From positions 1 through 64,000 of the forward strand of contig NZ_FNZN01000006.1 of NCBI RefSeq assembly GCF_900109345.1: 64,000 nucleotides of DNA. The letters are read 5' to 3'. Within the stretch, counting starts at the first letter, position 1, and each line of letters opens with the position of its first letter. Both the position numbers and the translations under genes were made by a program. This DNA is from Maribacter orientalis (lineage in GTDB: Bacteria > Bacteroidota > Bacteroidia > Flavobacteriales > Flavobacteriaceae). The notes under the pieces were generated by a model. That model was not told the DNA's origin, made no database searches, and saw only the letters and a program-made list of their open reading frames with translations. Positions 28,959 to 61,421 of this stretch are shown piece after piece.

Positions 28959-29300
28959 TTGAGTAATTCAAATGAAAACAGTAAAATAGCAAAGAGCACA
29001 ATGTACCTTTATATAAGGATGCTGTTTTCATGGCAGTTGCCTTAAATACCTCTAGAGTAGTGTTAGATGTTTTAGGTTTAGAAGACTTCGGGGTATATAG
29101 TGCGGTTGGTGGGGTGGTAATTCTATTTTCCTTTTTTAACTCTGCCATGTCCTCTGCTACACAGCGTTTTTTTATTTGAACTAGGAAGAAAAGATATTAA
29201 AAAGTTAAGCTTCACTTTTAAAGCCTTTGTTAATATACATATTTTAATAGCGTTATTAGTATTAATCTTAGCTGAAACATTAGACATTAGGTTCTTTTAA
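28959..29300 (+). pseudogene. Relic of an O-antigen flippase-type gene (frameshifted, truncated)
   Basis: Three successive frames together reproduce the N-terminal ~110 residues of a Wzx/MOP-type flippase. First comes NSKIAKSTMYLYIRMLF (about 28977-29025), then MAVALNTSRVVLDVLG and EDFGVYSAVGGVVILFSFF in another frame (about 29030-29180). FELGRKDIKKL through LILAETLDIRFF in a third runs to the stop at 29298-29300. At least two single-base frameshifts and loss of the remaining ~380 codons make it non-functional. An AT-only hairpin (29301-29326) follows. The family differs from that of the intact flippase immediately downstream. The 147 bases before the relic (28812-28958) hold nothing recognisable. 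Confidence 0.85.
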
Positions 29301-29353
29301 TAATAACATCAATTTTAATGTTATTATTAAATCATTGTCTATCATAGAAAAAT

Positions 29354-30634: not shown

Positions 30635-30638
30635 AGCA

Positions 30639-36338: not shown

Positions 36339-37071
36339 CGTAGTTAATATTTTGGGTACTCGAATTCATAATCTTACTATGGCCGAAACCCTTAATAAAA
36401 TTGAAGAAGGAATAGCTCAACGTAAACAGATACAACATGTAGTTGTAAATGCTGGTAAAATAGTTGCGATGCAAAATGACGAACAACTTCGCCAAAGTGT
36501 AAATGAAAGCGACTTAATTAATGCGGATGGACAGGCTGTTGTTTGGGCATCTAAAATTTTAGGGAAACCTTTAAAGGAAAGGGTTGCTGGTATTGATTTA
36601 ATGGAAAATCTTGTAGAATTAGCTCATAAAAAAAAGTATAAAATATTTTTTTTCGGTGCGAAAGAAGCAGTAGTCTCAAAAGTTCTAGAAAATTATTCAA
36701 AATTGTATTCACATAGTATTATAGCGGGATATAGAGATGGTTATTTTGATAAACAGGATGAAGAACAGATTGCTCGTGAGATTTCAGATAGTGGAGCGAA
36801 TATATTGTTCGTTGCAATTAGTTCCCCCACAAAGGAAAATTTTCTTTATCAAAACAGGGATTTATTGAATAAGGTAAGCTTTGTTATGGGTGTTGGGGGT
36901 AGTTTTGATGTTGTTGCCGGAAAAGTAAAAAGAGCCCCTCTTTGGATGCAAAATATTGGATTAGAGTGGTTTTATAGGTTTTTGCAAGAACCTAATCGAA
37001 TGTGGAGAAGATATTTGGTTGGAAACAGTAAGTTTATATATTATGTTGTAAAAGAGAAGTTTGGATTTTAA
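36319..37071 (+). CDS. WecG/TagA/CpsF family glycosyltransferase (GT26)
   Basis: 250 residues, the usual GT26 size. Blocks are VVVNAGKIVAMQND, ESDLINADGQAVVWAS with the catalytic-region D-G, GIDLMENL, IFFFGAKEAVV, ILFVAISSPTKENFLYQ, VMGVGGSFDVVAGKVKRAP and GLEWFYRFLQEPNRMWRRY. WecG and TagA transfer ManNAcA or ManNAc from UDP onto an undecaprenyl-linked GlcNAc acceptor. The locus carries wecB and wecC to make UDP-ManNAcA, so that donor is the likeliest. The start within the preceding gene (20-base overlap) is supported by conserved IxNILGTRI-type N-terminal residues. Confidence 0.92.
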   Translation: MVIQEDNVVNILGTRIHNLTMAETLNKIEEGIAQRKQIQHVVVNAGKIVAMQNDEQLRQSVNESDLINADGQAVVWASKILGKPLKERVAGIDLMENLVELAHKKKYKIFFFGAKEAVVSKVLENYSKLYSHSIIAGYRDGYFDKQDEEQIAREISDSGANILFVAISSPTKENFLYQNRDLLNKVSFVMGVGGSFDVVAGKVKRAPLWMQNIGLEWFYRFLQEPNRMWRRYLVGNSKFIYYVVKEKFGF

Positions 37072-37098
37072 TACCTTTACCTCTTATCGAATGTAAGA

Positions 37099-38451
37099 AT
37101 GTTGTTTAAACGAGGTAGATATTCTGGTTTCATTACTCCAATTTCCTATGGTCTTGATTTGATGGTTGTGAACTTATTTACAAATTTTTTGACCATTAAT
37201 TTTCAAAACCCGTGGCTGTTCCATTGTTATATTTCAATTACTTGGATTATTCTATCTTTCAAAAATGAATTTTATGTAATTCAACGTTATTCAAAGGCGG
37301 TAGTTCTACTGAGAAAACTATTCACCCAATTCGTTTTCTTTTTTTTAATTTTATATGCTTACATCGGCTTTTTTAAACAACCATTAATGAGTAGATTGGC
37401 ATTGGGCCAGTATTTCATCCTTGTTTTTGTTGGAATCAGTTTTTTGAAGATTTTAAATTTTTTCCTTTTAAATAAATATAGAGAACGGGTTAAAGGCAAT
37501 ATTAGAAATGTTGTCGTTATTGGTAATAGCAAGAAAGCAAATCAACTTATAGAAGTTTTTAATACAAGACGTGAATTTGGGTATCATTTTTCTTCTCAAT
37601 TTTCACCTAGAGATAAGGATTTTGAGTTGTTAAATTGTTTCAGATACATTGTGAACAATAACATTGATGAAATATACTGTTCGGTTTCTGAATTGAAGAA
37701 TGATGAGCTTTCAGCATTTATTAATTTTGCCGACAATAATTTAAAAACACTTAAATTCCTTCCAGACAATAAGAATATTTTTTCTAAAAAATTGAAATTT
37801 GAATATTATGATTACCTCCCAATCTTATCTTTACGAGATATACCATTGCATAATTCCCTTAATGCTATTTTAAAGCGATTGTTTGATATTGTTTTTTCAC
37901 TTGTTGTAATTTTTGGAATATTAATTTGGTTAGTACCGTTATTGGCACTTTTAATATCACTGGAATCTAAAGGTCCGGTTTTCTTTATTCAAAAAAGAAC
38001 TGGATTTGATAATGATGAATTCCAGTGTTTTAAATTTCGTTCTATGGCAATTAACGATTCTTCTGATCATCAACAAGCAGGTAAAAATGATATGAGAGTC
38101 ACCAAAATAGGGCGATTTATTCGGAAAACTAGCATAGATGAGTTGCCCCAGTTTTATAATGTACTTTTTGGTAATATGTCTGTAGTTGGGCCAAGACCAC
38201 ATATGTTAAAGCATACTGATGAATATGCAAATCGTGTAGATAAATACATGTTACGTCATTTTGTAAAACCTGGTATAACAGGATTGGCCCAAATAAGAGG
38301 GTATAGAGGGGAAATAGAAAAAGATAGTGATATTCAAAACCGTATAAAATTCGATATTTTTTATGTTGAAAACTGGTCTTTTTTCTTAGACTTAAAAATT
38401 ATTGTTCAAACTGTAGTTAACGCCTTTAAGGGCGAGGAAAAGGCTTATTAG
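37099..38451 (+). CDS. Undecaprenyl-phosphate sugar phosphotransferase (WbaP/WcaJ type)
   Basis: 450 residues. There are four N-terminal transmembrane helices, a central CoA-binding-like domain (NVVVIGNSKKANQLIEVF), and a fifth membrane segment. The C-terminal catalytic bacterial sugar transferase domain carries GPVFFIQKRTGFD, FKFRSM, TSIDELPQFYNVLFGNMSVVGPRP and KPGITGLAQIRGYRG. This is the initiating enzyme of Wzx/Wzy-type polysaccharides: it transfers a sugar-1-phosphate from UDP-sugar to undecaprenyl phosphate. Which sugar is moved cannot be read. Located near the end of the locus, with the UXS-like gene 7 bases downstream. Confidence 0.93.
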   Translation: MLFKRGRYSGFITPISYGLDLMVVNLFTNFLTINFQNPWLFHCYISITWIILSFKNEFYVIQRYSKAVVLLRKLFTQFVFFFLILYAYIGFFKQPLMSRLALGQYFILVFVGISFLKILNFFLLNKYRERVKGNIRNVVVIGNSKKANQLIEVFNTRREFGYHFSSQFSPRDKDFELLNCFRYIVNNNIDEIYCSVSELKNDELSAFINFADNNLKTLKFLPDNKNIFSKKLKFEYYDYLPILSLRDIPLHNSLNAILKRLFDIVFSLVVIFGILIWLVPLLALLISLESKGPVFFIQKRTGFDNDEFQCFKFRSMAINDSSDHQQAGKNDMRVTKIGRFIRKTSIDELPQFYNVLFGNMSVVGPRPHMLKHTDEYANRVDKYMLRHFVKPGITGLAQIRGYRGEIEKDSDIQNRIKFDIFYVENWSFFLDLKIIVQTVVNAFKGEEKAY

Positions 38452-43696: not shown

Positions 43697-44314
43697 TTAA
43701 ACTGTTACCGGTTTTGCCTCAATACTCTTAAAATATTGACGTAATTGTGTCATGAACCTATACTTTTTCGCACTAGGTGATGAACCCGTCATTAATGTTC
43801 GTACACCAAAATAAGAACTCATTAAAAATATTGCCACAGCTTCACAATCTGTATGGCGGTCTAAATAACCATTAAATTTTCCTTTTTGTAATGCAGAAAT
43901 CAGATTAACCTCCCATACGGTTACTATTTCATTTAAGTGGTGCATAATTACCTCATTCTTACCATTGAATTCGGTAAGAAAGTTACTTAGAATACAGCCA
44001 AAATCCATTTCATTATGAACGGCAGTTTCCATGGCTTCATCAAAGCAGTTCATTATTAAATTTAGTGGATTTTCGTGCCCTTCAATCGGTTCTATTAAAC
44101 TGCTATATACTTTACGTCCAAGTAAGTTTTGAATTATTTGTACAAAGAAATCTTCTTTAGAATCAAAATGATAATAGAATGCTCCTTTTGATAATTCTAA
44201 TTTTTTAAGAATATCATCTACACTTGTATTATAATACCCTTTAGCATAGAATAATTCTAGTCCTGTTGTTTGCATTCGTTGCATGGTGGCCATGCGCTTT
44301 AGACTTATGTTCAT
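43697..44314 (-). CDS. TetR/AcrR family transcriptional regulator
   Basis: 205 residues. The N-terminal TetR DNA-binding domain has GLELFYAKGYYNTSVDDILKKLELSKGAFYYHFDSKEDFF (helix-turn-helix about residues 30-52). The ligand-binding helical domain that follows includes MDFGCILSNFLTEF. Three Cys (90, 107, 157) lie in the ligand domain. A perfect 14-bp palindrome sits 23 bases upstream of the start, and a related site 150 bases upstream, so autoregulation is probable. It lies downstream of arsS in the same orientation. Starts at 44293 or 44284 are also possible. Candidate regulator of the adjacent arsenosugar-type cluster. Confidence 0.92.
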   Translation of the reverse strand: MNISLKRMATMQRMQTTGLELFYAKGYYNTSVDDILKKLELSKGAFYYHFDSKEDFFVQIIQNLLGRKVYSSLIEPIEGHENPLNLIMNCFDEAMETAVHNEMDFGCILSNFLTEFNGKNEVIMHHLNEIVTVWEVNLISALQKGKFNGYLDRHTDCEAVAIFLMSSYFGVRTLMTGSSPSAKKYRFMTQLRQYFKSIEAKPVTV

Positions 44315-44463: not shown

Positions 44464-44481
44464 AAACTAAGTGGTCGGTTT
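44464..44481. promoter_or_regulatory. Second TetR-like operator, AAACTANNNNGTCGGTTT type
   Basis: AAACTAAGTGGTCGGTTT, an imperfect palindrome whose outer AAAC...GTTT arms are exact. Centre lies 129 bp from the centre of the palindrome at 44337-44350. The same AAACTA-N4-GTCGGT core recurs at 53983 and 63941. Confidence 0.6.
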
Positions 44482-44636: not shown

Positions 44637-45692
44637 TTATGCTACCGTTCCTTGACAACTGCTACCTGCGCCTGCCGTACAACCATAACAATGCTGTGAG
44701 ATAATGATGTTTCTATCGTTTAATAAATCTTCATTGTAATCTTTAATATGCTTCACTTTACTAGCAACTTTTAAATCTAACATTTGATTAAAGTCGCAAT
44801 CATATAGCCATCCATCCCAACTGATTGAAATCGTATTGGTACACATTACATTTGCTACTGCTGAAGGATTATAGGCTTCTACCAAAGCATACATATAATC
44901 TTCATAATTCTCTGAGGCGATTAGATAATCTAAAAATCGTGCTATAGGCAGGTTCGTTATAGCGAACAAACTATGAAATTGAATATCAAAATCTTCTTTA
45001 AGGGCTTTTTTGAAATCCTTTTCCATTGCCGCTTGGTCTCCTGGCAAATATGCCCCTGATGGGTTATATACTAAGTCTAATCGTAAGCTACTGCCAGGTA
45101 AGCCGTACCCTCTTTCATTCAGTTCTTGTAACGCTTTAATCGATTTATCAAAAACCCCATCACCTCGTTGCTTATCTGTTTTTCCTCTGGTATAATGTGG
45201 CATAGAAGAAATTACGTGCACATTGTGTTTCTTGAAGAAATCTGGCAAATCATAATATTTCTTATTTGCTCTAATAATGGTAAGGTTAGAACGTACGATA
45301 AAATCCTTTATTCCTGCTTTTGCAGCCTCCTCAACAAACCATCTAAAATCAGGATTCATTTCTGGTGCTCCACCAGTTAAATCTAGAGTATGGGCTCCTG
45401 TATTTTTTATGACCTCTAAACACTGCATCATAGTTTCACGAGTCATTATTTCCTTACGATCCGGACCTGCATCTACGTGGCAATGCTCACATACTTGGTT
45501 ACACATGTATCCCACATTGATTTGTAGTATTTCCAACTTTTTAGGGCGTAGTGGAAAGTGGCCTATCTGAGCAATCTTATCCTTAAAATATGGAAGCTCT
45601 CCATCGGCAAAGATTCCTCCGTTCAATATTTCTAACTGCTTATTGGAAACTGCTAAATCGTTCCCTTTCGCTTTTAATGATTTTGTAGCCAT
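44637..45692 (-). CDS. arsS: Arsenosugar biosynthesis radical SAM protein ArsS
   Basis: 351 residues. Radical SAM core with the 4Fe-4S motif C-x3-C-x2-C at Cys64, Cys68 and Cys71 (GYMCNQVCEHCHVDAGPDR), then LDLTGGAPEMNP and FIVRSNLTI. The C-terminal Cys-rich domain ends HCYGCTAGAGSSCQG (Cys335, 338, 346), the signature of the ArsS family whose members couple a ribosyl/adenosyl group to methylated arsenic. In some relatives a selenocysteine occurs in this tail; here there is no in-frame TGA, so it is an ordinary Cys form. Neighbours include a TIGR04282-type transferase and an AhpD-like domain, both standard companions. arsM is not in the window. Leader contains CAACCAA repeats. Confidence 0.93.
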   Translation of the reverse strand: MATKSLKAKGNDLAVSNKQLEILNGGIFADGELPYFKDKIAQIGHFPLRPKKLEILQINVGYMCNQVCEHCHVDAGPDRKEIMTRETMMQCLEVIKNTGAHTLDLTGGAPEMNPDFRWFVEEAAKAGIKDFIVRSNLTIIRANKKYYDLPDFFKKHNVHVISSMPHYTRGKTDKQRGDGVFDKSIKALQELNERGYGLPGSSLRLDLVYNPSGAYLPGDQAAMEKDFKKALKEDFDIQFHSLFAITNLPIARFLDYLIASENYEDYMYALVEAYNPSAVANVMCTNTISISWDGWLYDCDFNQMLDLKVASKVKHIKDYNEDLLNDRNIIISQHCYGCTAGAGSSCQGTVA

Positions 45693-45730
45693 TCTTTTTT
45701 AGTTGTTGGTTGTTGGTTGTTTGTAGTTCA
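45693..45730 (-). repeat. CAACCAA-type repeats in the arsS leader
   Basis: On the minus strand the bases just before the arsS ATG read as short tandem CAACCAA/CAACAAC units, then A-rich sequence. Unstructured A/C-rich leaders are favourable for initiation in Bacteroidota lacking strong Shine-Dalgarno sites. Copy number is low. Confidence 0.5.
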
Positions 45731-45878
45731 TAAGTGTTATTACGAATTCATAAACCGTTCAACCTGTATTAATTTCTTTTTAATAGATAGCAATTTCTAT
45801 TTTATTCTCGTTTTGTAAATGGTTCTATGTCGATTTTTAAATTATCTAATAATCGACAACGAACAATTATCAACCAAA

Positions 45879-47084
45879 CTACATTGACAATTTGTTGTAC
45901 TTATTCATCATTTGTACGCCATGAACCAGTGTCGCTCCACTTTCAATAGCAGCACCTACATGAACAGCCTCCATCATTTCTTCCTTCGTAATTCCTTTCT
46001 GTAATCCGTCTTTTGTATAGGCGTCAATACAATAAGGACATTTAACAACATGGGATACCGCTAAAGCAATTAGTGACTTTTCTCTTGCACTTAGTGCACC
46101 TTCTTCGAAAACCTTACTATAATAGTCGAAAAATTTAGTTCCTAATTCTTCGCTCCATTCAGTAATCTTTCCAAATTTTCTTAAATCTGCCGGGTCATAA
46201 TACGTATCTGCCATCTTTTTCTGAGTTTTAGTTTTTATTAAGTCGTTTTGCTCTTGGTTAAAATAAATCGGAATTCCTTGTCCCATTTTTTCCACTTCTG
46301 GGAGAATTTCCATGTTGTCCCAAATACCTGAAATAAGTGTGTCTCCGTAGGCTTCAGGCAAATGGTTTTTGTACATTAATTTTTGTGCAGTTTCTACCTC
46401 GTATTCAAAGGAATGATGAGTGTAGGTTACTTGACCGTCAACTATATCGAGAATCATATACCAAACCCTAGCCGTACCATCATTTGCCGGCATACCTATA
46501 ACACCTGGGTTTAACCAAAGCTTATCATTGAAGGTCTGATGAAAGGGCAAACCACAATGACCCGCAATTATGATATCACTTATAGTATCTATAAAGCTGC
46601 GTTCTTTACTTTCTGTCGCGTTTGATGCAAATATGAATTCAGAGGTATTCCCATAATTTCCATGGACAACGGTAACTTTTTTACCACCATAATCAAAACT
46701 GATGTACTCCGGAATTTCCTTCATCCAATCTAATGATTGTTGCGACAAATGACCTTTGGTATAGGGAAACCACATTTTTGAAAAATCGTCACATCTACTA
46801 CCACTTTTAAAATCACAGCCACAGTCTTCACTATCATTCGCCAATTGTAATTCTACATTACCTGCAATACTTAAAGCTCCCCATTTTTGAAACAATTGAA
46901 CGGTTTCTTCGGGCTGCGCACAGTATCCAGTAATATCTCCAGTACTGATACAGTTTTCTGGTTTTATCCCAGCTTCTTTAGTAATGGAAATGAGCTTCTC
47001 TAAAGCTTGAAGGTTGCTATATACACCTCCGAAAAGCAACAGTTTTCCGCTTTTAGTGCCAATATGTTTTATTTCTTTATCCAT
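45879..47084 (-). CDS. Phosphoesterase-like domain fused to arsenosugar-associated AhpD/peroxidase-like domain
   Basis: 401 residues from ATG 47084; an in-frame ATG at 47126 lies deep inside the upstream symporter gene and is rejected. Residues about 12-270 follow the calcineurin-like/YfcE fold, with GDITGYCAQPEE (Asp50), AGNVE (75-78), VHGN (His141), AGHCGLPF (His176) and NPGVIGMP. Several metal ligands differ. The DxH motif is GGVYSN (Asp to Gly20, His to Tyr22), GNHD is GNVE, GHTH is GHCG, and a Cys-rich insert has Cys88, 90 and 98. Residues about 295-401 are an AhpD/carboxymuconolactone-decarboxylase domain with Cys349-x2-Cys352; the usual following His is Tyr356. The second domain matches the peroxidase-like protein of arsenosugar clusters, normally separate. 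Redox or thiol chemistry is inferred. Overlaps the symporter stop by 16 bases. Confidence 0.88.
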   Translation of the reverse strand: MDKEIKHIGTKSGKLLLFGGVYSNLQALEKLISITKEAGIKPENCISTGDITGYCAQPEETVQLFQKWGALSIAGNVELQLANDSEDCGCDFKSGSRCDDFSKMWFPYTKGHLSQQSLDWMKEIPEYISFDYGGKKVTVVHGNYGNTSEFIFASNATESKERSFIDTISDIIIAGHCGLPFHQTFNDKLWLNPGVIGMPANDGTARVWYMILDIVDGQVTYTHHSFEYEVETAQKLMYKNHLPEAYGDTLISGIWDNMEILPEVEKMGQGIPIYFNQEQNDLIKTKTQKKMADTYYDPADLRKFGKITEWSEELGTKFFDYYSKVFEEGALSAREKSLIALAVSHVVKCPYCIDAYTKDGLQKGITKEEMMEAVHVGAAIESGATLVHGVQMMNKYNKLSM

Positions 47085-48409
47085 GTAGGTATTATATAAA
47101 CGAATAGGCAACAAATGATGCCCCAAAAATTAATCCAAAGTAAATCGGCATACTTTCCTGTCGTAAAAATAAGTGCTTGTGGAAACCAATTGAAAATCAA
47201 AAGGAAACCGAAGAATAATCCACTAAACACACTTAAATGAAAACTTATTTTGGGAGCCTTCCCTCTCCAAAAAAGAAAAACAGGCGTCAAGCCAATAACC
47301 ATAGTGCCACTAATAGTTGTGGCCGACAGTATTTCTGCATTTAAGAATACAGGTATAGTGCCTAAAATTGCAATTACCACCATTGACCATCTGCCAAACT
47401 TAAGTGACGTTCCAAATTTTAAGTCAATAGCCACTAGTTTTGAAAAGGATGAAAAGGTAGAATCTAGTGTAGATGCCGCAGATGTTATCATTACGAAATT
47501 AATGACCAACAAGATAATAATACCAAAAGCTTTTCCCACTTCTACAGCAGCCTGCCCTTGCATACCTTGTGATTGTGCATAAACACCAATGGAACTAAAT
47601 AGTATAATGCATATTGCTCCTAGAATACTTGCCCATAGAAAACTTTTCAATGTGATTTTAGGACTACTAATAAATCCGCGATCAGTTAAAACAGGATCAT
47701 GAAAAGGATAACTGAAAGATTGTAATAATGCCGCAAACAATAAATTCAATCCGGTTTCGAACGACCAGATTCCTGAATTTACTACCTCTGTAACAGTTGT
47801 TGATGTTGTATTGCCAAAAATAGTGAACAATATTACCGCTAAAAGAATAGAGAAGAGTCCCATTTGGATAACATCGGTAAATATAGAACTACTCATGCCT
47901 CCTTTTAAGACATAAGCCAATGTCAACCCTGTAAATACTAAAATGGACCAATAATACGACGATGTGCCTTCAGGTCCAAAATAGGAACCAATGACCATGG
48001 TATTACTCCATACCTCGTTAAATAAACGAATGGCAATCAAAATAGAGAATATAGTAACAGCAGATTTTCCGAATTTACTCGATAGAAAATGGTGTATGCT
48101 TGTGTACTTTCCATGTAAACGCATTCTATATATTACCAAACCAGCTACGGCAAAGGATAGGTAGTACCCTGCATATGCAACCCCACCAACAATACCAAAG
48201 TCTAAGCCTAAATTTGCGGCGTTCGTAATACTCTTCGCAAATATCCATGAGATGATCAAACTGCCCATTAGCATAAACGTGTTGGGCGCTTTCTTTTTTT
48301 GAACTGCCTTAAAAAACTGATTCGTGTCTTTTGCCCATGGGGAAAGTAAGAACAGCACCAAACTTGATGCTATAATTAAACTCCATTGCCAAATTTTTAC
48401 TTCAGTCAT
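47069..48409 (-). CDS. Sodium:solute symporter (SLC5 family)
   Basis: 446 residues, about thirteen transmembrane helices. The family's LeuT-fold features are visible: an N-terminal KSITNAANLGLDFG segment in place of the usual sodium/galactose loop, GGVAYAGYYLSFAVAG, the YTSIHHFLSSKFG stretch, GGMSSSIFTDVIQMGLFS, and TSAASTLDSTFSSFSKLVAIDL with the Ser/Thr-rich sodium site. It is an inner-membrane secondary transporter. Placement between SusD and the phosphoesterase/AhpD fusion suggests it imports what the SusCD pair captures, or exports a product. Substrate not readable. Confidence 0.9.
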   Translation of the reverse strand: MTEVKIWQWSLIIASSLVLFLLSPWAKDTNQFFKAVQKKKAPNTFMLMGSLIISWIFAKSITNAANLGLDFGIVGGVAYAGYYLSFAVAGLVIYRMRLHGKYTSIHHFLSSKFGKSAVTIFSILIAIRLFNEVWSNTMVIGSYFGPEGTSSYYWSILVFTGLTLAYVLKGGMSSSIFTDVIQMGLFSILLAVILFTIFGNTTSTTVTEVVNSGIWSFETGLNLLFAALLQSFSYPFHDPVLTDRGFISSPKITLKSFLWASILGAICIILFSSIGVYAQSQGMQGQAAVEVGKAFGIIILLVINFVMITSAASTLDSTFSSFSKLVAIDLKFGTSLKFGRWSMVVIAILGTIPVFLNAEILSATTISGTMVIGLTPVFLFWRGKAPKISFHLSVFSGLFFGFLLIFNWFPQALIFTTGKYADLLWINFWGIICCLFVYIIPTWIKK

Positions 48410-48480
48410 TTAATTCTATTAATTACTATAATTCAAGGTATCCTGCCGCTTTCGACCGTACCGAATTAATAATTTCCTAA

Positions 48481-49911
48481 CTATTTATCCCACCAAACTG
48501 GAACATTTATGCTATTGCCATCTGTTTGACTTGCGGCAGCTGCATAATTGACACTATTCAAAGCTTCTTCTTCTGAAGGATAGGGCATACGAATAGGAAT
48601 TAAATTGTTGTTTAAGCTAGCAGAAATTGTTTTCAATTGTGGAAAACCGGTTCTTCTGTATTCTACCCAACCTTCATATCCATTTATCATATTGGAAATC
48701 CATTTTTGGGTAATGATATTTTCTAATGCATTACCATTACTTAAAGCACCTTCTGCGCTTAAATAAGTTTCGGGTATTTCTACTTGCCAATACGCAAAAG
48801 CTTGAGTTACCCCTGTATTGTATAGTGTTTCGGTATCACCAGTTATCAAGCCTTTTTGAGCTGCTTCTGCCAATAAGAAATGTGTTTCCATACTGGTCAT
48901 AAAATTAGCGTCTAAAAGCCCTGTATTTTCTCTAAAAATGGCACCTAATAATGAATAATCTGCCACGGAAACACCTGTTGAGGCATCAATACCGTTTAAG
49001 AGTCCGTTGAATTCATTAGTGGTGGTATTACCTAACGGTCGATATAATCGTTCAATTCGCGGATCATTTAGATCGGTCAATATTTCATCCATCGTTTCAG
49101 ATAATACATAATTATTAAAATCTCCGATTCGAAGTCTGGCCAGTCTAAAATTATTCGGTTCACCATCGGTAAAATTGAAAATGGCGTTTTCTGAATTTTC
49201 ATCTATAAAATTTCCTTCGGATAAAATTGTCTGTAATTGTGCAGCAACATCGACCTTCGCTGAAATACGCACGAGGAATTTAATTTTCAGTGAATTTGCA
49301 AAACGTATCCATCCCGCTAAATCCCCATTGAATAAAATATCTCCTTCTAATGAAATGGTACCGGTATAATTTTCCATAGCCGCTATTCCCTTAGCAAGAT
49401 TGTCCAATATGCCACCTTCATCCATATAAATAGATTCTTGAGAATCATAGACAGGAGTAACGGTTTCTGTATCACCCTTAAATGCTTCAGAATAGGGGAC
49501 ATCTCCAAACAAATCTGTCAACGCTGCTGCCATATATGCCTTCATTATTCTGGCGGGACCTTCATATACCGCAAAGGCAGTATTTTCTTGAGACAAATTC
49601 AAAATGATTTCATTGTCCCTTAAATTTTGATAGAATATTGGCCACGGATTACCTCCTAATTGCGGAGATTTTAAATCATGCCTGTCAAACAGGTTAAAAT
49701 CAAGGGCTGTACTGTATTGCCCAAGCAAGTTCCCCGCCGTAAAACCTTCATAAGACATTTGTTCACCATAATCATAGATTACTTGCCTAAGCAATAGGCT
49801 TGGTTGCACGGTAACAGGTGAATTTGAATTTGTGTTTATTTCTTCAAAATCTTTAGTACAACCAACGACCAATAATAAGATTACTATACTATATACATAT
49901 TTCATTGTCAT
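48481..49911 (-). CDS. SusD/RagB-type outer-membrane lipoprotein (SusD-like_2 type)
   Basis: 476 residues from ATG 49911 (or 474 from 49905). A short hydrophobic signal with LLLVVGC places a lipidated Cys near residue 17; an upstream in-frame ATG at 50049 lies inside susC and is rejected. Mature sequence begins TKDFEEINTNSNSPV, then helical TPR-like segments, and the SQENTAFAVYEGPARIMKAYMAAALTDLFGDVPYSEA motif. A C-terminal ETHFLLAEAAQKG and GYEGWVEYRRTGFP follow. It caps the SusC transporter on the cell surface and binds substrate. It follows susC by only 4 bases. The pair is embedded in an arsenosugar-type cluster, not beside glycoside hydrolases. Confidence 0.93.
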   Translation of the reverse strand: MTMKYVYSIVILLLVVGCTKDFEEINTNSNSPVTVQPSLLLRQVIYDYGEQMSYEGFTAGNLLGQYSTALDFNLFDRHDLKSPQLGGNPWPIFYQNLRDNEIILNLSQENTAFAVYEGPARIMKAYMAAALTDLFGDVPYSEAFKGDTETVTPVYDSQESIYMDEGGILDNLAKGIAAMENYTGTISLEGDILFNGDLAGWIRFANSLKIKFLVRISAKVDVAAQLQTILSEGNFIDENSENAIFNFTDGEPNNFRLARLRIGDFNNYVLSETMDEILTDLNDPRIERLYRPLGNTTTNEFNGLLNGIDASTGVSVADYSLLGAIFRENTGLLDANFMTSMETHFLLAEAAQKGLITGDTETLYNTGVTQAFAYWQVEIPETYLSAEGALSNGNALENIITQKWISNMINGYEGWVEYRRTGFPQLKTISASLNNNLIPIRMPYPSEEEALNSVNYAAAASQTDGNSINVPVWWDK

Positions 49912-49915
49912 ATTC

Positions 49916-52900
49916 TTAAAAATTAAATCCGGCTTTAAAACCGATACTTCTGGTCGTGGCATACGACATATCCTCAACACCACTAATAAAACCTTGACCT
50001 TGTACAGCGAGTTGTTCAGGATCAAAATGCGGATTTTCGGTGATAGCAAATAGGTTTTTACCGATTAGGGATACATTCAACGTGGCATCTTGATTGAATA
50101 AGCTGAGGTTATCGAAGGTATAGCCAATAGATAATTGACGCAGTTTTAGAAAAGAGGCATCGTAGGTATTGTTTTCCTCGTGGTTTCTGTCATAATATTG
50201 CCTATAGTAACTTTCAGCTGAAACAGCTACAGTATTGGTGGTGTACACTGGGTTTTCTTCTGTACCAGTATTTACGACACCTGCCGGAACAATGCCAGAT
50301 TCTGGTCTAAAAGCGGTTTCTGCCAATTGACCACCTACATTACCCAATGCCTTAGTTCTTGATACAATTATGCCACCTTGTCGCCAATCGAATAGAAAAC
50401 CTAAATTCCAGTTTTTGTAATTGAATTGATTATTGAAACCTAACATAAAATCAGGATTATAATTCCCTAGTTTTTGTAGGTCATTATTAGGTATATATCG
50501 CCCTTCTTCGGTTAAGATGAATTCTCCGTTATCATTTTTTAAATAACCTGTACCGTACATATCACCTACACGGCCACCTTCTTCAACTTGAAAAAATACC
50601 GTTTGGTTTTGACTGTCATAAATACGAGAATAAGCCAATGTTAGTCGACCATCTTCTTGAGGTAAGCTTTCTACGGTAGATCGGTTGGTGCTAAAATTTA
50701 AGGTACTGTTCCATTTTAGATTTTCACTAAGCACGGGCGATATACCTAGAATAATTTCTAACCCTTTTGACCGAACTTCTCCGCCATTAACCACCTGTTG
50801 GGTATACCCAGATGAAATGCCAATGGGCAATGAAATTATTTGGTCTTTTGTTAATGCGTTGTAATAGGATACATCAAAACGAAATTGATCGCCGAATAAG
50901 CGAATATCTGCACCTACTTCAAAAGATGAGGTACGTTCGGGCTGCAAATTAGGATTTGCAATAATGTTAGAATTACTAAATGTAGGTTGACCGTTATATG
51001 GTGTCTGAGCTACAAAGGCTCCCGTGGTCTGGTACGGATTAGTATCATTGCCCACTTGCGCCCAACTGGCTCTTAGTTTTGCAAATGATATAGTTTTTGG
51101 TAAATCAACAACTTCAGATAGAATAAAACTACTGGATACCGATGGATAAAAAAACGAAGTATTGTCAACTGAAAAGGGGGTTGCCAATGCACTAGACCAA
51201 TCGTTTCTTCCTGTGATATCCAAGAAAAGGAAATCTTTGTACCCGAATTTTGCTAACCCGTAAAAACTATTGATGCGCTTGTTCGATTCAAACTCGAATA
51301 CTTCAACTGGCGAAGCGGCATTGGATAATCTGAAAATTCCTGGTTGCGCTAAACTTGTTGTTTGTGATTGAGAGGTAAATGCCTTTTGGTCCAATCTGTT
51401 TCCCCCCAAAGAAATATCGAAACTTATGTCATTAAATTGATTGGCGTAATTCAAAAGAAAGTCGGTGTTTACTTCCCTAAAGAAAACATCATGTTCTGCA
51501 TAACCACCGTTTTTAAAACGATTTGAACTGTATGCCCTGCGCAATTGGCGTAGTTCACTTGAGTAATCCATACCTGTTCTAAACGATACTGTTATGTAGT
51601 CTGTAATATCATAGGTAGCAGATATATTACCAAAAACCCGGTCTCTATTAAATGAATTCCTGTTCTCGTAGAGTATGAAATAGGGGTTATCAAAATAGGT
51701 GTAATTAAATGAATATTGTTGTACACCTTCAAGACCAGGTTGCCAATAATTTTTAAGGTTATTAATATTCAATGAACGTGGTCCCCAGGCGACTAAGGAG
51801 TAATTGACATTTTCAGAACCGTAGCCATTAGAAGGGCGGTTATCACTATTAGAATTAATATAACTAATAGATGAATTGATGCGTAATTTATCAATTGGCA
51901 GAAAATTTAGTCGAGTATTTATGGTTTGTCTATCTAAATTAACACCAGGAATAATAGATTCACTTCGCAAATCGGTAAATGAAAGGCGATAGTTCCCTTT
52001 ATCAAATCCAGAGGAAATTGCAATGTTGTTTATTAAGGTAGTTCCGGTTTCATAGAAATTTTTCAAATTATCTGGATTTGACTTAAATTCTGTAGGAGTA
52101 ATAGGAATACTACTGTATAAGGCAGTATCTCCACCACGTACTACACTTCCATCCGCCAGAGTAACGGGACTATCATATTGTGGAATTAGATTGCCTACAT
52201 CTAAACGAGGACCCCAACTATAGGTTATTAAATCATTTGTTCCTCCGCCTAATCCATCTACAAAAGCAAACTCTCCAGAATTACCTTGTCCGTATTCATT
52301 TTGAAAATCGGGCAATTGAAAGGCTGAATCCACAAAAAAGCTGGTATTATAACTAACTCCCAATCCTTTAGTGTTTTTACCGCTTTTTGTCTCAATTATA
52401 ATAACACCGTTAGATGCTCTTGTTCCATAAAGTGCTGCGGCACTTGGCCCTTTTAAAACGGAAACCTCTTCAATATCATCAGGGTTTACCTCCATGGCAC
52501 CGTTACCGAAATCTATTTCTTGAAACCCGGCAGCAGCCTCGTTGGTGAAATTAAAGACTGAGTTGTTATTAATGGGCACTCCATCCACAATAAATAACGG
52601 ATTGTTATTGGAAAAAGATGCTTCTCCACGAATAGTAATTTTTGATGAGGAACCTACGCCAGTAGCACCTTGATTAATGGTTACGCCAGCTAATTTACCC
52701 GAAAGGTTGTCCAAGAAGTTTACTGATTTTACTTCCGTAACACCTTTGGCATCCAAGCTCTGTACAACATAGCCTAATTCTTTAGTTTCTCTTTTAAATC
52801 CTAATGCGGTCAATACCACTTCATCTAAAATTTCAGATGAATCTTCAAGGGTGACATTAATAGTATTGCGATTGTTTATAGGTACTAATTTAGATTGATA

Positions 52901-53119
52901 TCCTAAAACCGAAAATTCAATAGCACCTGAAAGGCTAGGTACATCTATTGAATACATACCGTTTTCATTGGTCGTAGATCCGGTCAAAGTACCAGACAAT
53001 ACAATGTTTACATACGGAATTGAATTTCCATCGGTATCGGTAACAATACCTGTTATGGTTTCTTGAGCACTGACTATTGTTATCATAAACATAGTCAACA
53101 CCATAAAAATGTGTTTCAT
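49916..53119 (-). CDS. SusC/RagA-type TonB-linked outer-membrane transporter
   Basis: 1,067 residues. The signal peptide ends VSAQ, followed by a carboxypeptidase-regulatory-like domain (about 20-100, ITGIVTDTDGNSIPYVNI). The TonB plug follows (about 110-235) with VVQSLDAKGV, IRGEASFSNNNPLFIVDGVP and the SusC signature VLKGPSAAALYGTRASNGVIIIETK. A 22-strand barrel ends at F-x-F. No STN domain. Translocates a ligand handed over by the SusD lipoprotein, energised by TonB. It lies 53 bases downstream of the TIGR04282-type gene, in one probable operon. Ligand unknown. Confidence 0.95.
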   Translation of the reverse strand: MKHIFMVLTMFMITIVSAQETITGIVTDTDGNSIPYVNIVLSGTLTGSTTNENGMYSIDVPSLSGAIEFSVLGYQSKLVPINNRNTINVTLEDSSEILDEVVLTALGFKRETKELGYVVQSLDAKGVTEVKSVNFLDNLSGKLAGVTINQGATGVGSSSKITIRGEASFSNNNPLFIVDGVPINNNSVFNFTNEAAAGFQEIDFGNGAMEVNPDDIEEVSVLKGPSAAALYGTRASNGVIIIETKSGKNTKGLGVSYNTSFFVDSAFQLPDFQNEYGQGNSGEFAFVDGLGGGTNDLITYSWGPRLDVGNLIPQYDSPVTLADGSVVRGGDTALYSSIPITPTEFKSNPDNLKNFYETGTTLINNIAISSGFDKGNYRLSFTDLRSESIIPGVNLDRQTINTRLNFLPIDKLRINSSISYINSNSDNRPSNGYGSENVNYSLVAWGPRSLNINNLKNYWQPGLEGVQQYSFNYTYFDNPYFILYENRNSFNRDRVFGNISATYDITDYITVSFRTGMDYSSELRQLRRAYSSNRFKNGGYAEHDVFFREVNTDFLLNYANQFNDISFDISLGGNRLDQKAFTSQSQTTSLAQPGIFRLSNAASPVEVFEFESNKRINSFYGLAKFGYKDFLFLDITGRNDWSSALATPFSVDNTSFFYPSVSSSFILSEVVDLPKTISFAKLRASWAQVGNDTNPYQTTGAFVAQTPYNGQPTFSNSNIIANPNLQPERTSSFEVGADIRLFGDQFRFDVSYYNALTKDQIISLPIGISSGYTQQVVNGGEVRSKGLEIILGISPVLSENLKWNSTLNFSTNRSTVESLPQEDGRLTLAYSRIYDSQNQTVFFQVEEGGRVGDMYGTGYLKNDNGEFILTEEGRYIPNNDLQKLGNYNPDFMLGFNNQFNYKNWNLGFLFDWRQGGIIVSRTKALGNVGGQLAETAFRPESGIVPAGVVNTGTEENPVYTTNTVAVSAESYYRQYYDRNHEENNTYDASFLKLRQLSIGYTFDNLSLFNQDATLNVSLIGKNLFAITENPHFDPEQLAVQGQGFISGVEDMSYATTRSIGFKAGFNF

Positions 53120-53172
53120 AAATAGCTTTTGAACTGAGTTTTACAATTACCCAATAATGGGTTGGGTCGGAT

Positions 53173-53862
53173 TTAAACAAATAAAACTTCAGGAGAACCT
53201 TTATTGAACATGAATCTGTCAGGAAACAGACATAAGAAGTTCTGGTTGGTGTAGTTTAGACTTCTTTTTATTCTTAATAACCGTATAATCAACAGTAATA
53301 AGATTGATGATAGACTTCTGGAAAACGATAATATGGTCTGTAAATCCTTTTCGTTGTCCAAATCTTGTAGAACAGGTAGTTTAATTAATTCTGATGACTC
53401 TTTTCTTAGCCATAATGATATTTGATGGTATAGGCTAAAACGTTGCCAAGGAAGGTTATGAAAACCACTAACATCAAAATTAGATTTTTGTAAGCCCAAC
53501 AAGTAGAAACCTCCGTCATTAGAAGGACCAATTACGGTCTTGCCCAATGATAATTGCTTGGCTGTATGTTTAAGGTGTTGGGTTTTTAAATGAGGAGTAT
53601 CGTTACCTATGGTAATAATTCTAGAAAACCCTTTGTCAAAAACATTTGCTATGGCATTTGTAAAACGCTCACCAAAAGTAGCGCCAACTTGATCTTTGTC
53701 TGAAAAGTGAAAAACAGGTAAACCTGTGTTTTGAGCTTTCTTAAGAGTGGTCCTAGTTAGATGGTGGAATAATTGCTCACCTTTAGGAATGGACTTAATA
53801 GCCAAATCTTCCTTGGCGGAATTGGCAAAAACCAAAATAGCAGTTGTACCCTGTGAATTCAA
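53173..53862 (-). CDS. TIGR04282-type transferase of arsenosugar clusters (DUF2064 family)
   Basis: 229 residues, GT-A-like nucleotidyl/glycosyl-transferase fold of the CofC/DUF2064 family. Seen are the N-terminal AILVFANSAKEDLAIKSIP, GATFGERFTNAI, IITIGNDTPHL (the D-x-P acidic motif) and VIGPSNDGGFYLLGL, which define the rSAM-associated transferase family TIGR04282. In arsenosugar pathways it is proposed to add a sugar or glycerol-type group. The C-terminal ~45 residues contain a hydrophobic stretch (about 180-195). It is the first gene of the minus-strand cluster, with operator-like sites 121 and 247 bases upstream. Confidence 0.87.
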   Translation of the reverse strand: MNSQGTTAILVFANSAKEDLAIKSIPKGEQLFHHLTRTTLKKAQNTGLPVFHFSDKDQVGATFGERFTNAIANVFDKGFSRIITIGNDTPHLKTQHLKHTAKQLSLGKTVIGPSNDGGFYLLGLQKSNFDVSGFHNLPWQRFSLYHQISLWLRKESSELIKLPVLQDLDNEKDLQTILSFSRSLSSILLLLIIRLLRIKRSLNYTNQNFLCLFPDRFMFNKGSPEVLFV

Positions 53863-53982: not shown

Positions 53983-54000
53983 AAACTAATCAGTCGGTTT
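53983..54000. promoter_or_regulatory. TetR-like operator, AAACTANNNNGTCGGTTT type
   Basis: AAACTAATCAGTCGGTTT; the same core as at 44464 and 63941. 121 bases upstream of the first gene of the arsenosugar-type cluster. Confidence 0.6.
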
Positions 54001-57938: not shown

Positions 57939-60900
57939 TTGAAAAAATTAGCTTTTTGTTTTTTAGTAGTATGTTTTAATTTACTCACAGCCCAAAAGGA
58001 GGCGGCCATTTGGTATTTTGGTAGAAATGCCGGGTTAGACTTCAATAGCGGAGCACCTGTTCTTTTAACCGATGGTGCTTTAGACACAAGGGAAGGTTGT
58101 GCAAGCATATCTGATCCTAACGGTAACCTATTATTTTACACCGATGGCCTTACAGTTTGGAACCGTAACCACCAACCCATGCCCAACGGTACGGGCCTCA
58201 ATGGTGATCCATCTAGTACGCAAGCGGCCATCATAATACCCAAATCTGATGAACCTAATATCTTTTATATTTTTACCGTAGACGATTATGGTGGGCCAAA
58301 CGGATTACAATATAGTATTTTAGACCTAAATTTAGATAGCGGTTTGGGAGGGATAACCACTCAAAAAAATATCTTATTACAAGCTCAAGTTTCAGAAAAG
58401 ATAACCGCTATACAACATGCTGATAGAGAATCTGTTTGGGTGGTTACTAAAGGTTGGGAAAATAATAATTTTTATAGTTACCAGATAGATGAAAACGGAG
58501 TAAATCCGACACCCGTTACCACACCAATTGGATTTACCCCTCAATTGAATAATCGTTTAACTGTTGGGTATTTAAAAGCATCGCCAGATGGTCGTTTTTT
58601 GGGCAGTGCATCTGAAGCGCTGGGGGTCATGGAAATTTTCAGGTTTAATGCCAATACGGGTGTAGTTAGCGATTTAATTTCCTTACAGGATTATTTTGAT
58701 AATACTTGGTATGATATGGAACCTTATGGAGTGGAATTTTCACCTAACGGCAAGGTTTTATATGTAAGTACCCGTGGAGGTATTCTACAATTTGATATTA
58801 GTAACTATGAGCATGATGCTATTGTGAACTCTGCAGTTCGCTTGGGAGGGGTTAATACGTCTACACCTTTTTTTGGGGCTATACAACTTGCCATAGATGG
58901 TAAAATCTATTGTGCAAGGTATGGTGGTCAATTTCTAGATGTTATACATGAACCAAATATTTTGGGACTGGCAGCTAATTATGAGGAACAGGGAATTTCT
59001 TTGGGTTCTCGAAGAAGCTTACTAGGTTTGCCTCCCTTTTTAACCTCCTATTTTTACGTAGGTATAAAAGCAGAAAATCTTTGTTTTGGTGATTTAACAG
59101 AATTCTCATTAGATGTTTCAAACCCAGTAACATCTATTTTATGGGATTTTGGTGATGGTATTAATGCAACAACGGAAGTACCTACCCATGTTTATGCTAA
59201 TCCTGGCGATTATACCGTTACTGTTGAGGTTACCACAGCAACAGGAATCACATCGGAAATCAAGGATATTACCATTTTTGAAACCCCAATTGCCAACACT
59301 CCGGGAGACTTGGTAGGTTGTACCTCTTATGGTAGTTACAACATAGATTTGCCTTCTTTTAATCCTACCGTTTTAGCGACTCAAGACACTACAATTTTTA
59401 CAGTTGATTATTTTTTAAGTCAGGCCGATTCAGATAATAATACAAACCCTTTAGAACCTATCCATCAGTTTGATTATGGAACAACTCCAGTCTTTGTAAG
59501 GGTATCCAATGCCAACAATGAGCAATGTTATGATACGACTCAATTCAATATCATAGCCCGTGAAGCCCCTATTGTAGAAATCATAACCGATTGGACAGTC
59601 TGTGATGACGATACCGATGGACTGTACATTTTTGACCTTTCCTTAAAAAACATAGAGATTTTCAATGGTCAAGACGAAACTACCTTTGAAATATTATATT
59701 TTGCTTCTCAGACCGATGCTGATACTGGAACGAATGTGTTACCAGTAAGCTATACCAATACATTACCAACGGAAGAAATCTTTGTTCGGATCCAAAACAG
59801 TACGTATCCTACCTGTTTTAGAACGGGAAGTTTTATGATTGCCGTAACTCCAGGAGTTACGGCAAATATTCCAAGCAATTTGGAAATTTGTGATGATAAC
59901 AATGATGGTTATTCCACCTTTAATCTTGCTGATACTGAACCGGAAATTATTGGCACACAGAGTGCTAGTAGTTTATCCATTAGCTATTATGCTACAATGA
60001 CTGATGCTGAGAGCAATTTAAATTCGTTACCCATTTCTTATACCAATAGCGTTGCTAATAAACAAACTATTTATGTTCGGGTGGCAAATGCTACCGATGT
60101 CAATTGCTATGCAACGACCTCTTTTGAGGTTAATGTTTTTGATACGCCCCAATTACAAACGGTTACAGACTGGCTTGTTTGTGATAATGATAATGACGGA
60201 GTTTTTGATTTTAACCTGACTGAAAAGAACAATGAAATTTTAGGAAATCAAAATCCGACCGATGTTTCAATTCGTTATTACGAAAGCTTATCAGATGCTA
60301 TTCTTGCTCAAAATGAAATAACAGGAACGTATCAGAACACAGCCAACCCACAAACGCTTTTTTATCGTTTAGATAATAGTATGAATACGACATGTTTTGT
60401 GACAAGTAGTTTTGATTTGGAGGTTTTTGAAACACCGTTTGCGCTCGCTTCAACGCCTATAATTGGTTGTGATATAAACGAAACAGGAAGCCAGACCATA
60501 GACCTTACGCAAAAGAACTCTGAAATTTTGGGCAATCAAGACCCAAGCCAATTTACAGTAGCTTTTTATGCATCTCCATCGGATGCTGAAAACAGCATAA
60601 ATGAGTTAAGTGCAAATTCATATATTAATACGCAAAGCCAAGAAACACTTTATGCTCGTGTGGAAAGAATAGGTCTTGAAAGTTGTTACGCTTTGACTTC
60701 GTTAGAAATTAGTATAAACCCTTTACCACAAACGGTTTTGGAAGAACGCTATGTCATTTGTCCTGATAGTCCCGCATTGGTAATCGATGGAGGTGATTTT
60801 GAGAGTTGGTTTTGGCAAAATGCTAACGGAACCGAAATAAGCACAACTAGATTTTTTGATGTAACAGACCTTGGAGAATATCAATTAACGGTATCCCAGA

Positions 60901-61421
60901 CTAATAATGGAATAACCTGCGAGAATTCAGAAACATTTGAAGTAGTATCCTCTGGAGCACCAGAAAGTATAGTGGTGGACACCAAAGGATTTTCAGATCA
61001 AATAGATGTTACGGTTACGGCAACCGGTACTGGGCCCTTTGAGTATTCTGTAGATGGTGAAAATTATCAGGCAAGTAATGCGTTTACAGTTTTTCCAGGG
61101 AAATACACCGTGTATGTTAGGGATTTGGAGGAATGTAGAATTTTATCCGAAGAAATCATCGCCATTGGGTACCAACGTTTTTTCACCCCAAACGGCGATG
61201 GCAACAATGAATATTGGAATATTATTGGTTCGGAGCTCTACCCAGGTTCTCAACTTTATATTTATGATAGGTATGGAAAATTCTTGAAACAGTTGAGTGC
61301 TGATTCCAAAGGATGGGATGGTAAATCTAATGCAATATCGCTGCCTGAATCAGATTATTGGTTCAAATACAACTACGCCAATAATCAAGTTATGACAGGG
61401 CATTTTACGCTGAAAAGGTAG
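57939..61421 (+). CDS. T9SS type B cargo protein with PKD domain and five tandem repeats (TTG start)
   Basis: 1,160 residues. The only usable start is TTG: an in-frame stop lies 12 bases upstream and the first ATG is far inside. It yields a signal peptide (KKLAFCFLVVCFNLLTAQ). Residues about 20-370 form a propeller-like domain (IWYFGRNAGLDFNSG, LLFYTDGLTVWN). A PKD domain lies about 385-450 (LWDFGDGINATTEVPTHVY), followed by five repeats of about 95 residues (57939-based positions about 457-925). A SprB/Ig-like segment and a type B sorting domain follow (FFTPNGDGNNEYW, IYDRYGK, GWDG, LPESDYWF, GHFTLKR). It is exported by the type IX system to the surface or medium. No catalytic motif; likely adhesin or scaffold. 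Confidence 0.92.
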   Translation: MKKLAFCFLVVCFNLLTAQKEAAIWYFGRNAGLDFNSGAPVLLTDGALDTREGCASISDPNGNLLFYTDGLTVWNRNHQPMPNGTGLNGDPSSTQAAIIIPKSDEPNIFYIFTVDDYGGPNGLQYSILDLNLDSGLGGITTQKNILLQAQVSEKITAIQHADRESVWVVTKGWENNNFYSYQIDENGVNPTPVTTPIGFTPQLNNRLTVGYLKASPDGRFLGSASEALGVMEIFRFNANTGVVSDLISLQDYFDNTWYDMEPYGVEFSPNGKVLYVSTRGGILQFDISNYEHDAIVNSAVRLGGVNTSTPFFGAIQLAIDGKIYCARYGGQFLDVIHEPNILGLAANYEEQGISLGSRRSLLGLPPFLTSYFYVGIKAENLCFGDLTEFSLDVSNPVTSILWDFGDGINATTEVPTHVYANPGDYTVTVEVTTATGITSEIKDITIFETPIANTPGDLVGCTSYGSYNIDLPSFNPTVLATQDTTIFTVDYFLSQADSDNNTNPLEPIHQFDYGTTPVFVRVSNANNEQCYDTTQFNIIAREAPIVEIITDWTVCDDDTDGLYIFDLSLKNIEIFNGQDETTFEILYFASQTDADTGTNVLPVSYTNTLPTEEIFVRIQNSTYPTCFRTGSFMIAVTPGVTANIPSNLEICDDNNDGYSTFNLADTEPEIIGTQSASSLSISYYATMTDAESNLNSLPISYTNSVANKQTIYVRVANATDVNCYATTSFEVNVFDTPQLQTVTDWLVCDNDNDGVFDFNLTEKNNEILGNQNPTDVSIRYYESLSDAILAQNEITGTYQNTANPQTLFYRLDNSMNTTCFVTSSFDLEVFETPFALASTPIIGCDINETGSQTIDLTQKNSEILGNQDPSQFTVAFYASPSDAENSINELSANSYINTQSQETLYARVERIGLESCYALTSLEISINPLPQTVLEERYVICPDSPALVIDGGDFESWFWQNANGTEISTTRFFDVTDLGEYQLTVSQTNNGITCENSETFEVVSSGAPESIVVDTKGFSDQIDVTVTATGTGPFEYSVDGENYQASNAFTVFPGKYTVYVRDLEECRILSEEIIAIGYQRFFTPNGDGNNEYWNIIGSELYPGSQLYIYDRYGKFLKQLSADSKGWDGKSNAISLPESDYWFKYNYANNQVMTGHFTLKR
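59300..60730 (+). repeat. Five tandem ~285-295-base coding repeats
   Basis: Units begin at about 59310, 59591, 59876, 60170 and 60463 (spacings about 281, 285, 294, 293). Each encodes CDxxxDGxxxFDLxxKxxEI, an IxYYxSxxDAxxxxN segment, LPxSYTN, VRxxNxxxxxCxxTTSF. Protein-domain repeats, diverged at DNA level. Confidence 0.85.

Follow-up and report, generated by a model that had tools for sequence, protein, structure and literature searches.

Introduction

The route to arsenosugars is commonly depicted as self-contained: it starts from arsenite, which is methylated twice, adenosylated, trimmed and glycosylated. Adenosylation of arsenic by a radical SAM enzyme in the synthesis of oxo-arsenosugars is reported in PMC12159101, which cites Cheng 2021. 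In the present study, we describe a locus of the flavobacterium Maribacter orientalis (GCF_900109345.1) in which ArsS, the radical SAM enzyme of arsenosugar biosynthesis, stands beside a probable importer cassette. The locus occupies positions 44637-53862 of contig NZ_FNZN01000006.1, of which positions 1-64,000 were analyzed (the window, 64,000 nucleotides). Marine flavobacterial lineages that bear the cassette tend to lose arsM, and we put at about even the chance that the block serves acquisition across two membranes, is coupled to the arsenosugar pathway and supplies ArsS with methylated arsenic.

With the cyanobacterial (Synechocystis) ArsM/ArsS pathway the locus shares the ArsS family TIGR04167, and arsM too accompanies ArsS in 146 of 184 flavobacterial ArsS genomes; unlike that pathway, it belongs to a genome in which no arsM was found, and an importer cassette and a metallophosphoesterase (MPP)-fold protein have been added. 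The common flavobacterial cluster runs AhpD-ArsS-rhodanese-TIGR04282-PNP-ArsM-DUF547-TIGR04283. Here ArsS and AhpD likewise stand together and rhodanese, TIGR04282, PNP and TIGR04283 lie at a second locus, whereas the genome departs from the common arrangement in using two contigs, in having no arsM and in carrying the cassette upstream of AhpD-ArsS. The SusC/SusD pair recalls polysaccharide and peptide utilization loci (SusCD, RagAB, BT2263-64), and the nearest solved relative of this SusC is BT_2264 of 5fq6 (420 bits). In contrast to those loci, the block is linked to ArsS, and Pfam and NCBIfam named no glycoside hydrolase, lyase or peptidase among its seven proteins, which sets it apart from a polysaccharide utilization locus. 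Among the open PMC matches listed, none joined SusCD or a symporter to arsenosugar genes in its title or the start of its abstract.

Gene content of the locus

The minus strand is transcribed in the order GTb, SusC, SusD, symporter-like protein, MPP~AhpD fusion and ArsS, and then a TetR gene. The first six genes encode:

53173..53862, minus strand: GTb, a divergent DUF2064/TIGR04282-like protein and the cassette's first gene (PF09837, 71 bits; TTG start uncertain)
49916..53119, minus strand: SusC-type TonB-dependent outer-membrane importer (TIGR04056, 585 bits, cut-off 368)
48481..49911, minus strand: SusD-type lipoprotein lid (PF12771, 294 bits, cut-off 27)
47069..48409, minus strand: sodium:solute-symporter-like inner-membrane transporter of a conserved subfamily (TIGR00813 and PF00474, both below cut-off)
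46221..47084, minus strand: MPP-fold domain, N-terminal half of the fusion (PF12850, Metallophos_2, 37 bits)
45879..46220, minus strand: AhpD-like domain, C-terminal half of the fusion (TIGR04169, 195 bits, cut-off 120)
44637..45692, minus strand: ArsS, radical SAM enzyme of arsenosugar biosynthesis (TIGR04167, 436.7 bits, equivalog cut-off 300; PF12345, DUF3641)

Gaps of 53, 4 and 71 bases separate GTb from SusC, SusC from SusD and SusD from the symporter gene; the symporter gene shares its last 16 bases with the MPP gene, and 186 bases lie between MPP~AhpD and ArsS. For SusD, the start at 49911, giving a signal that ends in LLLVVGC, is most likely and is preferred over 50049. The ArsS translation contains CNQVCEHC, which fits the radical SAM motif CxxxCxxC, and TIGR04167 has one match in the whole genome. 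Among the other matching genomes listed, three ArsS matches were seen in one (G062), two in another (G178) and one in each of the rest.

The sequence-only reading of this DNA had placed ArsS, an AhpD-like domain, SusC and SusD on one strand at 44637-53862; they lie there, on the minus strand, and all of them score over their cut-offs. Some of its other assignments needed correction. The AhpD-like domain is present, not as a separate gene but as the C-terminal half of a fusion whose Metallophos_2 half had gone unmentioned. The supposed TIGR04282-type companion does belong to the DUF2064 family but reaches 90.6 bits against the TIGR04282 cut-off of 134, the canonical copy (210 bits) lying on another contig, and the supposed SLC5 symporter is symporter-like, with both SSF models below cut-off. 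The stated absence of arsM, arsenate reductase and exporter holds for the window, where Pfam named none of them among 47 non-overlapping open reading frames (ORFs) of at least 100 amino acids (4 of the 47 having no Pfam match at all, and the search for arsenate reductase covering the window only). It does not hold genome-wide for the exporter: one Acr3 (443 bits) is encoded on a third contig (G000:C16), in a row with an ArsR-family gene.

Cassette distribution and absence of arsM

The ArsS loci surveyed were those of the 80 best among at least 590 relatives, together with 20 further loci, and across them GTb, SusC, SusD, symporter and MPP recur in this order as one block. In Maribacter and a Flagellimonas the block precedes AhpD-ArsS; in Winogradskyella, Algibacter, Cochleicola and others it follows ArsS and comes ahead of rhodanese-TIGR04282-PNP. 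Among 249 Flavobacteriaceae genomes, ArsS is present in 184, the cassette MPP in 33 (three weak matches, with E near 1e-31 to 1e-33, being uncounted) and the symporter in 34, the 34th of which (G242) has neither MPP nor ArsS. Symporter and MPP together, usually with GTb-SusC-SusD, were found in 33 genomes, and ArsS in all 33 of these (Fisher p=2.7e-5); the set is a conserved cassette. Of 395 genomes drawn from the phylum, nine have the symporter (E<=1e-90), two of them already counted; the seven new ones all carry MPP and ArsS, and five belong to other families. ArsS lies inside the same fetched stretch in 36 of the 40 cassette genomes and elsewhere in the genome in the other four (L157, L159, L160 and L187). 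The association of the cassette with ArsS exceeds chance.

GTb was not seen in one locus of the family (L169) and in four outside or at its edge (L158-L161). Outside Flavobacteriaceae, the cassette may sit far from ArsS in the same genome (L200, L201 and L202, of G587, G349 and G637), and in L202 arsM adjoins ArsS.

arsM (model NF038099) was matched in 146 of the 249 genomes, never without ArsS. It is absent from 16 of 33 cassette genomes as against 22 of 151 ArsS genomes without the cassette (Fisher p=5.9e-5), and from 15 of 32 as against 16 of 131 when only genomes at least 90% complete are counted (p=4.2e-5). An 80-genome set, which overlaps the 249, includes some partial metagenome bins and covers only cassettes near ArsS, gives 10 of 16 against 6 of 64 (p=2.4e-5); in this set, 48 genomes were scored positive for arsM from the locus alone and 32 were scored by whole-genome search, and the 16 cassettes include L101, where GTb-SusC-SusD runs to the contig end, and L090, where symporter-MPP alone is seen.

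On the ArsS tree with 151 tips, a Pagel-type test prefers the dependent over the independent model (p=4.2e-5, with some rates at bounds). A simpler model puts the rate of arsM loss at 6.6 in lineages with the cassette and at 0.63 in those without it (likelihood-ratio statistic 18.4, p=1.8e-5), a statistic reached by none of 160 simulations under independence. Ratio-corrected subsamples, in which 82 of 105 arsM-positive cassette-free tips were kept, gave 13.6-15.2 in 12 draws. The 33 genomes left out are G087, whose ArsS lies outside the fetched locus, and 8 arsM-less and 24 arsM-positive cassette-free genomes for which no coordinates were listed.

Of the 16 arsM-less cassette genomes, 10 hold TIGR04282, PNP and TIGR04283 in the same locus and M. 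orientalis holds them at its second locus; in the other five, the ArsS locus is without them. Since these three proteins are kept in the 10 of 16 and in this genome, a single step has been lost there and the pathway has not decayed. Apart from four opposite-strand ORFs beyond TIGR04283 in L168, which were set aside, the ORFs without annotation in those ten loci comprise DUF885, MFS and M20 peptidase proteins and one without match, and no methyltransferase is among them. In one arsM-less cassette genome (L174, 4565-5728), the place that arsM takes in relatives, after PNP and ahead of the next gene of the cluster, is occupied by an MFS transporter gene.

arsM searches and the second locus

The genome of M. 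orientalis (4.16 Mb, 26 contigs, completeness 100) gave no match to the arsenosugar-type arsM model NF038099 at E<=1e-40. For the general arsenite methyltransferase model NF008823, nothing in the genome exceeded the cut-off, the best of five hits reaching 40.5 bits against 263; for reference, the ArsM of a relative (L090) reaches 117 bits, itself below 263. An arsM elsewhere in the genome, which the sequence-only reading had named as evidence against itself, was found by neither curated model. A query with a 120-amino-acid fragment gave no arsM match either, a result uninformative by itself, and NF038099 found no arsM in a same-genus genome. By NCBIfam, three of the five weak hits are MenG/UbiE, RlmD and PrmA; the other two (L033 and L035) are methyltransferases without an NCBIfam name over cut-off, and both are possible ArsM replacements.

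The second locus (L139), on another contig, carries a rhodanese (NF045521, 195 bits), the canonical TIGR04282 protein (210 bits), PNP (NF006054, 334 bits), TIGR04283 (232 bits) and a DUF547 gene, and no arsM was found there either. Canonical TIGR04282, PNP and TIGR04283 stand in a row at 9611-11849 of L139, which suggests that phosphorolysis, nucleotide activation and glycosyl transfer would follow ArsS in that order, an order that the passages of the literature consulted do not state.

Predicted properties of the cassette proteins

GTb is without the N-terminal motif typical of canonical TIGR04282 proteins and has conserved motifs of its own (FGeRF.NAI, GNDtP, DGGFYLmG and a C-terminal NKGSP); to judge from these features, it is a divergent paralogue on a separate branch of the DUF2064 family. 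Its predicted model (predicted local distance difference test, pLDDT, 72; six sequences) is nearest to 3cgx, a putative nucleotide-diphospho-sugar transferase (Z 21.2), and shares the fold of the CofC/FbiD/3-phosphoglycerate guanylyltransferases (Z 15-18), as seen in its matches to CofC-like 2i5e (Z 18), the 3-phosphoglycerate guanylyltransferase 7p97 (Z 17.1) and the FbiD-type Rv2983 (6bwg, Z 15.2). Because the model resembles nucleotidyltransferases, a possible role of TIGR04282 proteins is to couple a nucleotide to the sugar phosphate that PNP makes, after which TIGR04283 may transfer it.

The nearest solved relative of SusD is 5j5u (161 bits). The symporter-like protein scores 22.5 bits against 22.8 for PF00474 and 31 against 184 for TIGR00813, and thus falls outside SLC5/SSF by both models; it appears weakly related to that family, hence the label. 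It is 73-88% identical to 11 other aligned cassette copies, and the sole solved chain matched is the choline transporter SLC5A7 (9rws, 31 bits). The matches of the symporter and of SusC to solved structures are not strong enough to point to a particular substrate.

The MPP~AhpD fusion is 401 amino acids long from a probable ATG at 47084. We take the M1 metal site of calcineurin-type enzymes to consist of the Asp and His of motif I and the last His of motif V, and assign M1 and M2 on that assumption. In all 53 cassette MPP rows (49 distinct), the M1 ligands are replaced by Gly, Tyr and Gly, and the M2 ligands, namely Asp of motif II, Asn of motif III, His of motif IV and the first His of motif V, are kept. 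Cysteines are invariant at positions 55, 88, 90 and 98 of L062. The non-cassette relatives L293-L295 have no cysteine at 55 and 98 and retain full metal motifs (DIH, GHTH), with GNYD in motif III as the one departure. These cassette-free relatives also have the CGC cysteine pair, which hence is not cassette-specific. By its predicted fold (pLDDT 74), the fusion is similar to 2gju (Z 24.9), SapH (3qfm, Z 24.7), 1nnw and 3rqz, all at Z 23-25. With the YfcE/SapH-type metallophosphoesterases (3qfm, 3rqz), the cassette MPP shares the fold and the M2 ligands; it differs from them in its Gly/Tyr/Gly substitution at M1 and in two added invariant cysteines. The Pyrococcus proteins 2gju and 1nnw, of unassigned function, likewise look degenerate in the alignment. 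The cassette MPP may be a one-metal enzyme, and that it binds arsenic is a guess.

As a leading idea, an ordinary phosphodiesterase opening an imported phosphoester was rejected, the M1 ligands being gone in 53 of 53 rows and kept in L293-L295.

MPP-AhpD fusions occupy two separate places in the MPP tree, one being the Maribacter group and the other G450, a genome from a different family. The fewest label changes are three, at least two of them forced by well-supported branches, and L158 sits on a long branch; the tree is most simply read as two origins of the fusion. Because it is fused to AhpD, MPP likely acts with AhpD and ArsS. Its role would be cytoplasmic. The locus thereby draws attention to an MPP-fold protein with half of its metal site gone and cysteines added, in the context of arsenic.

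Discussion

We infer the substrate, the direction of flow and the order of PNP, TIGR04282 and TIGR04283 as follows. SusC/SusD would carry a compound over the outer membrane and the symporter-like protein would carry it over the inner one; the compound would most likely be a dimethylated arsenical, or a precursor readily converted to one, released by algae or other plankton. In the cytoplasm, the MPP-fold protein, fused to AhpD in M. orientalis, would handle the compound and pass it to AhpD/ArsS, and ArsS would add the 5'-deoxyadenosyl group. With the proteins of the second locus, PNP would then release arsinoyl-ribose-1-phosphate, which TIGR04282 would activate with a nucleotide before its transfer to an acceptor by TIGR04283. 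Since methylated arsenic would be imported, the cell's own arsM would be dispensable and would have been lost repeatedly. In a fuller version, which we offer tentatively and hold to be less likely, arsenic scavenging would be widespread: flavobacteria would actively import methylated or sugar-bound arsenic of phytoplankton through a dedicated system of SusCD and symporter, and a one-metal, cysteine-bearing MPP relative would carry the arsenical through the cytoplasm to AhpD/ArsS, so that arsM would be unneeded and arsenosugar synthesis would depend on the community.

The sequence-only reading had also proposed uptake in place of methylation, and the idea is partly supported: the absence of arsM is linked to the importer across the family and on the tree, but a number of observations weigh on the other side. 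arsM is retained in 17 of the 33 cassette genomes, and 22 of the 151 cassette-free ArsS genomes are also without it. Among nine arsM-less cassette-free loci read (L203-L211), all but L207 keep TIGR04282 and PNP, as do L118 and L119, which argues that the importer is not required for life without arsM. Symporter and MPP occur alone, without GTb and SusCD, in three cassette loci (L170, L178 and L190). Dimethylarsinic acid (DMA) is small enough for porins, and a SusCD pair for DMA alone would be unexpected; BT2264, moreover, has been observed with bound peptide, according to PMC7782687. The two methyltransferases L033 and L035, the Acr3 encoded elsewhere and the divergence of the TIGR04282 companion count on the same side. 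As for the tree, it is a codon tree of ArsS and not a species tree, it covers 151 of the 184 ArsS genomes, the genomes left out of it include 8 of the 22 arsM-less cassette-free genomes, and the hypothesis was tested on the same data that suggested it.

What the cassette imports might instead be an arsenic-free partner of the pathway, either an acceptor for arsinoyl-ribose (a polyol, a glycerophosphodiester or something peptide-like) or a phosphorylated nutrient scavenged when phosphate is scarce and arsenate comes in along with it; the loss of arsM would then be a side effect of lifestyle. We consider this rather unlikely. It would suit a cassette headed by GTb, a second protein of nucleotidyltransferase fold, a SusC whose nearest solved relative is of the peptide-bound type, the larger molecules that SusCD pairs usually import and the phosphate transporter family PF01384 seen in 9 of 100 ArsS loci, in seven within 6 kb of ArsS. 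It does not predict, however, that arsM is lost at a tenfold higher rate with the cassette, nor that MPP and AhpD are fused at two places in the tree.

Another account, to which we give little credence, holds that an unrelated, unrecognized methyltransferase replaces ArsM in arsM-less genomes and that the cassette is incidental. Only two arsM models were tried, L033 and L035 are at hand in this genome, and arsM-less cassette-free genomes retain the rest of the pathway, all of which would fit; yet the other three weak hits are the MenG/UbiE, RlmD and PrmA proteins, the unannotated ORFs of ten arsM-less cassette loci include no methyltransferase, and the correlation of cassette and arsM is left unexplained.

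It is very unlikely, in our view, that ArsS of the cassette genomes acts on an imported arsenic-free substrate, which would give the ArsS family a different role there. The 184 of 249 genomes with ArsS are more than arsenic exposure alone suggests, and arsM is dispensable, as such a role would allow; against it stand the score of ArsS, 436.7 bits and far above its equivalog cut-off, the retention of PNP, TIGR04282 and TIGR04283 where looked for, and the company of arsM in 146 of the 184 ArsS genomes and never apart from ArsS in the 249. That the correlation is an artefact of sampling or phylogeny and the block a mere neighbor without shared function, for which one might cite an ArsS gene tree with 151 of 184 tips and a hypothesis drawn from the same data, is highly improbable and is disfavored by ArsS in 40 of 40 genomes with symporter and MPP (four of them with the cassette away from ArsS), by the fusion with AhpD and by the parametric null (0 of 160).

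Members of a large marine group retain the late steps of arsenosugar synthesis and lack the first, and this is more frequent among those with a dedicated importer. This provides a testable case for division of labor in the marine arsenic cycle and candidate genes for the import of organoarsenicals, and it bears on the question whether arsenosugars are mere waste. If such scavenging is true, arsenosugar may be something sought by the cell and not merely a product of detoxification.

Candidate regulation and other features

Next to ArsS lies a gene for a possible regulator, and two candidate operators were noted:

43697..44314, minus strand: TetR-family regulator, candidate regulator of the module (PF00440 and PF16925)
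53983..54000, minus strand: candidate operator AAACCGACTGATTAGTTT, about 120 bases upstream of GTb, an exact match to AAACCGACNNNTTAGTTT
44464..44481, minus strand: candidate operator AAACCGACCACTTAGTTT, about 150 bases upstream of tetR, the other exact match to AAACCGACNNNTTAGTTT

The pattern AAACCGACNNNTTAGTTT, picked after the sites had been seen, has these two exact matches in the window. A palindrome near ACCGAC-N6-GTCGGT exceeds the 95% level of the controls upstream of tetR in 12 of 15 loci and upstream of GTb in 7 of 19. The scoring matrix drew on sites of three of these same loci, and true sites had not been removed from the control windows. For the window itself, the palindrome scores are 18.0 on the tetR side (95% level 8.8, 99% level 21.7) and 6.5 on the GTb side. 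The palindromes upstream of tetR and GTb are identical over 18 bases in L123, and in a pairwise comparison of 17 loci most are near the shuffled level. A TetR operator palindrome is a lead, with good support upstream of tetR and modest support upstream of GTb.

Two further gene families were seen in the ArsS loci. The phosphate transporter PF01384 (cluster 37, e.g., L076 14136-15248) perhaps indicates a link with phosphate status. A fatty-acid-hydroxylase-family gene (PF04116, e.g., L134 17936-18823), present in 27 of 100 loci and often following arsM or PNP, perhaps relates to arsenolipids.

Elsewhere in the window, Pfam assigns 20382-38451 to a polysaccharide synthesis and export cluster, with rhamnose-type genes, a UDP-sugar epimerase and dehydrogenase, an MBOAT protein, a member of the polysaccharide flippase family, a pyruvyl transferase, two O-antigen-ligase-like proteins, a WecG-type protein and an initiating sugar transferase. 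A SprB-repeat protein with a CHU_C signal, adjoining a PorP/SprF protein (71-4640), and a PKD protein with a CHU_C signal (57939-61421) are type IX secretion cargo.

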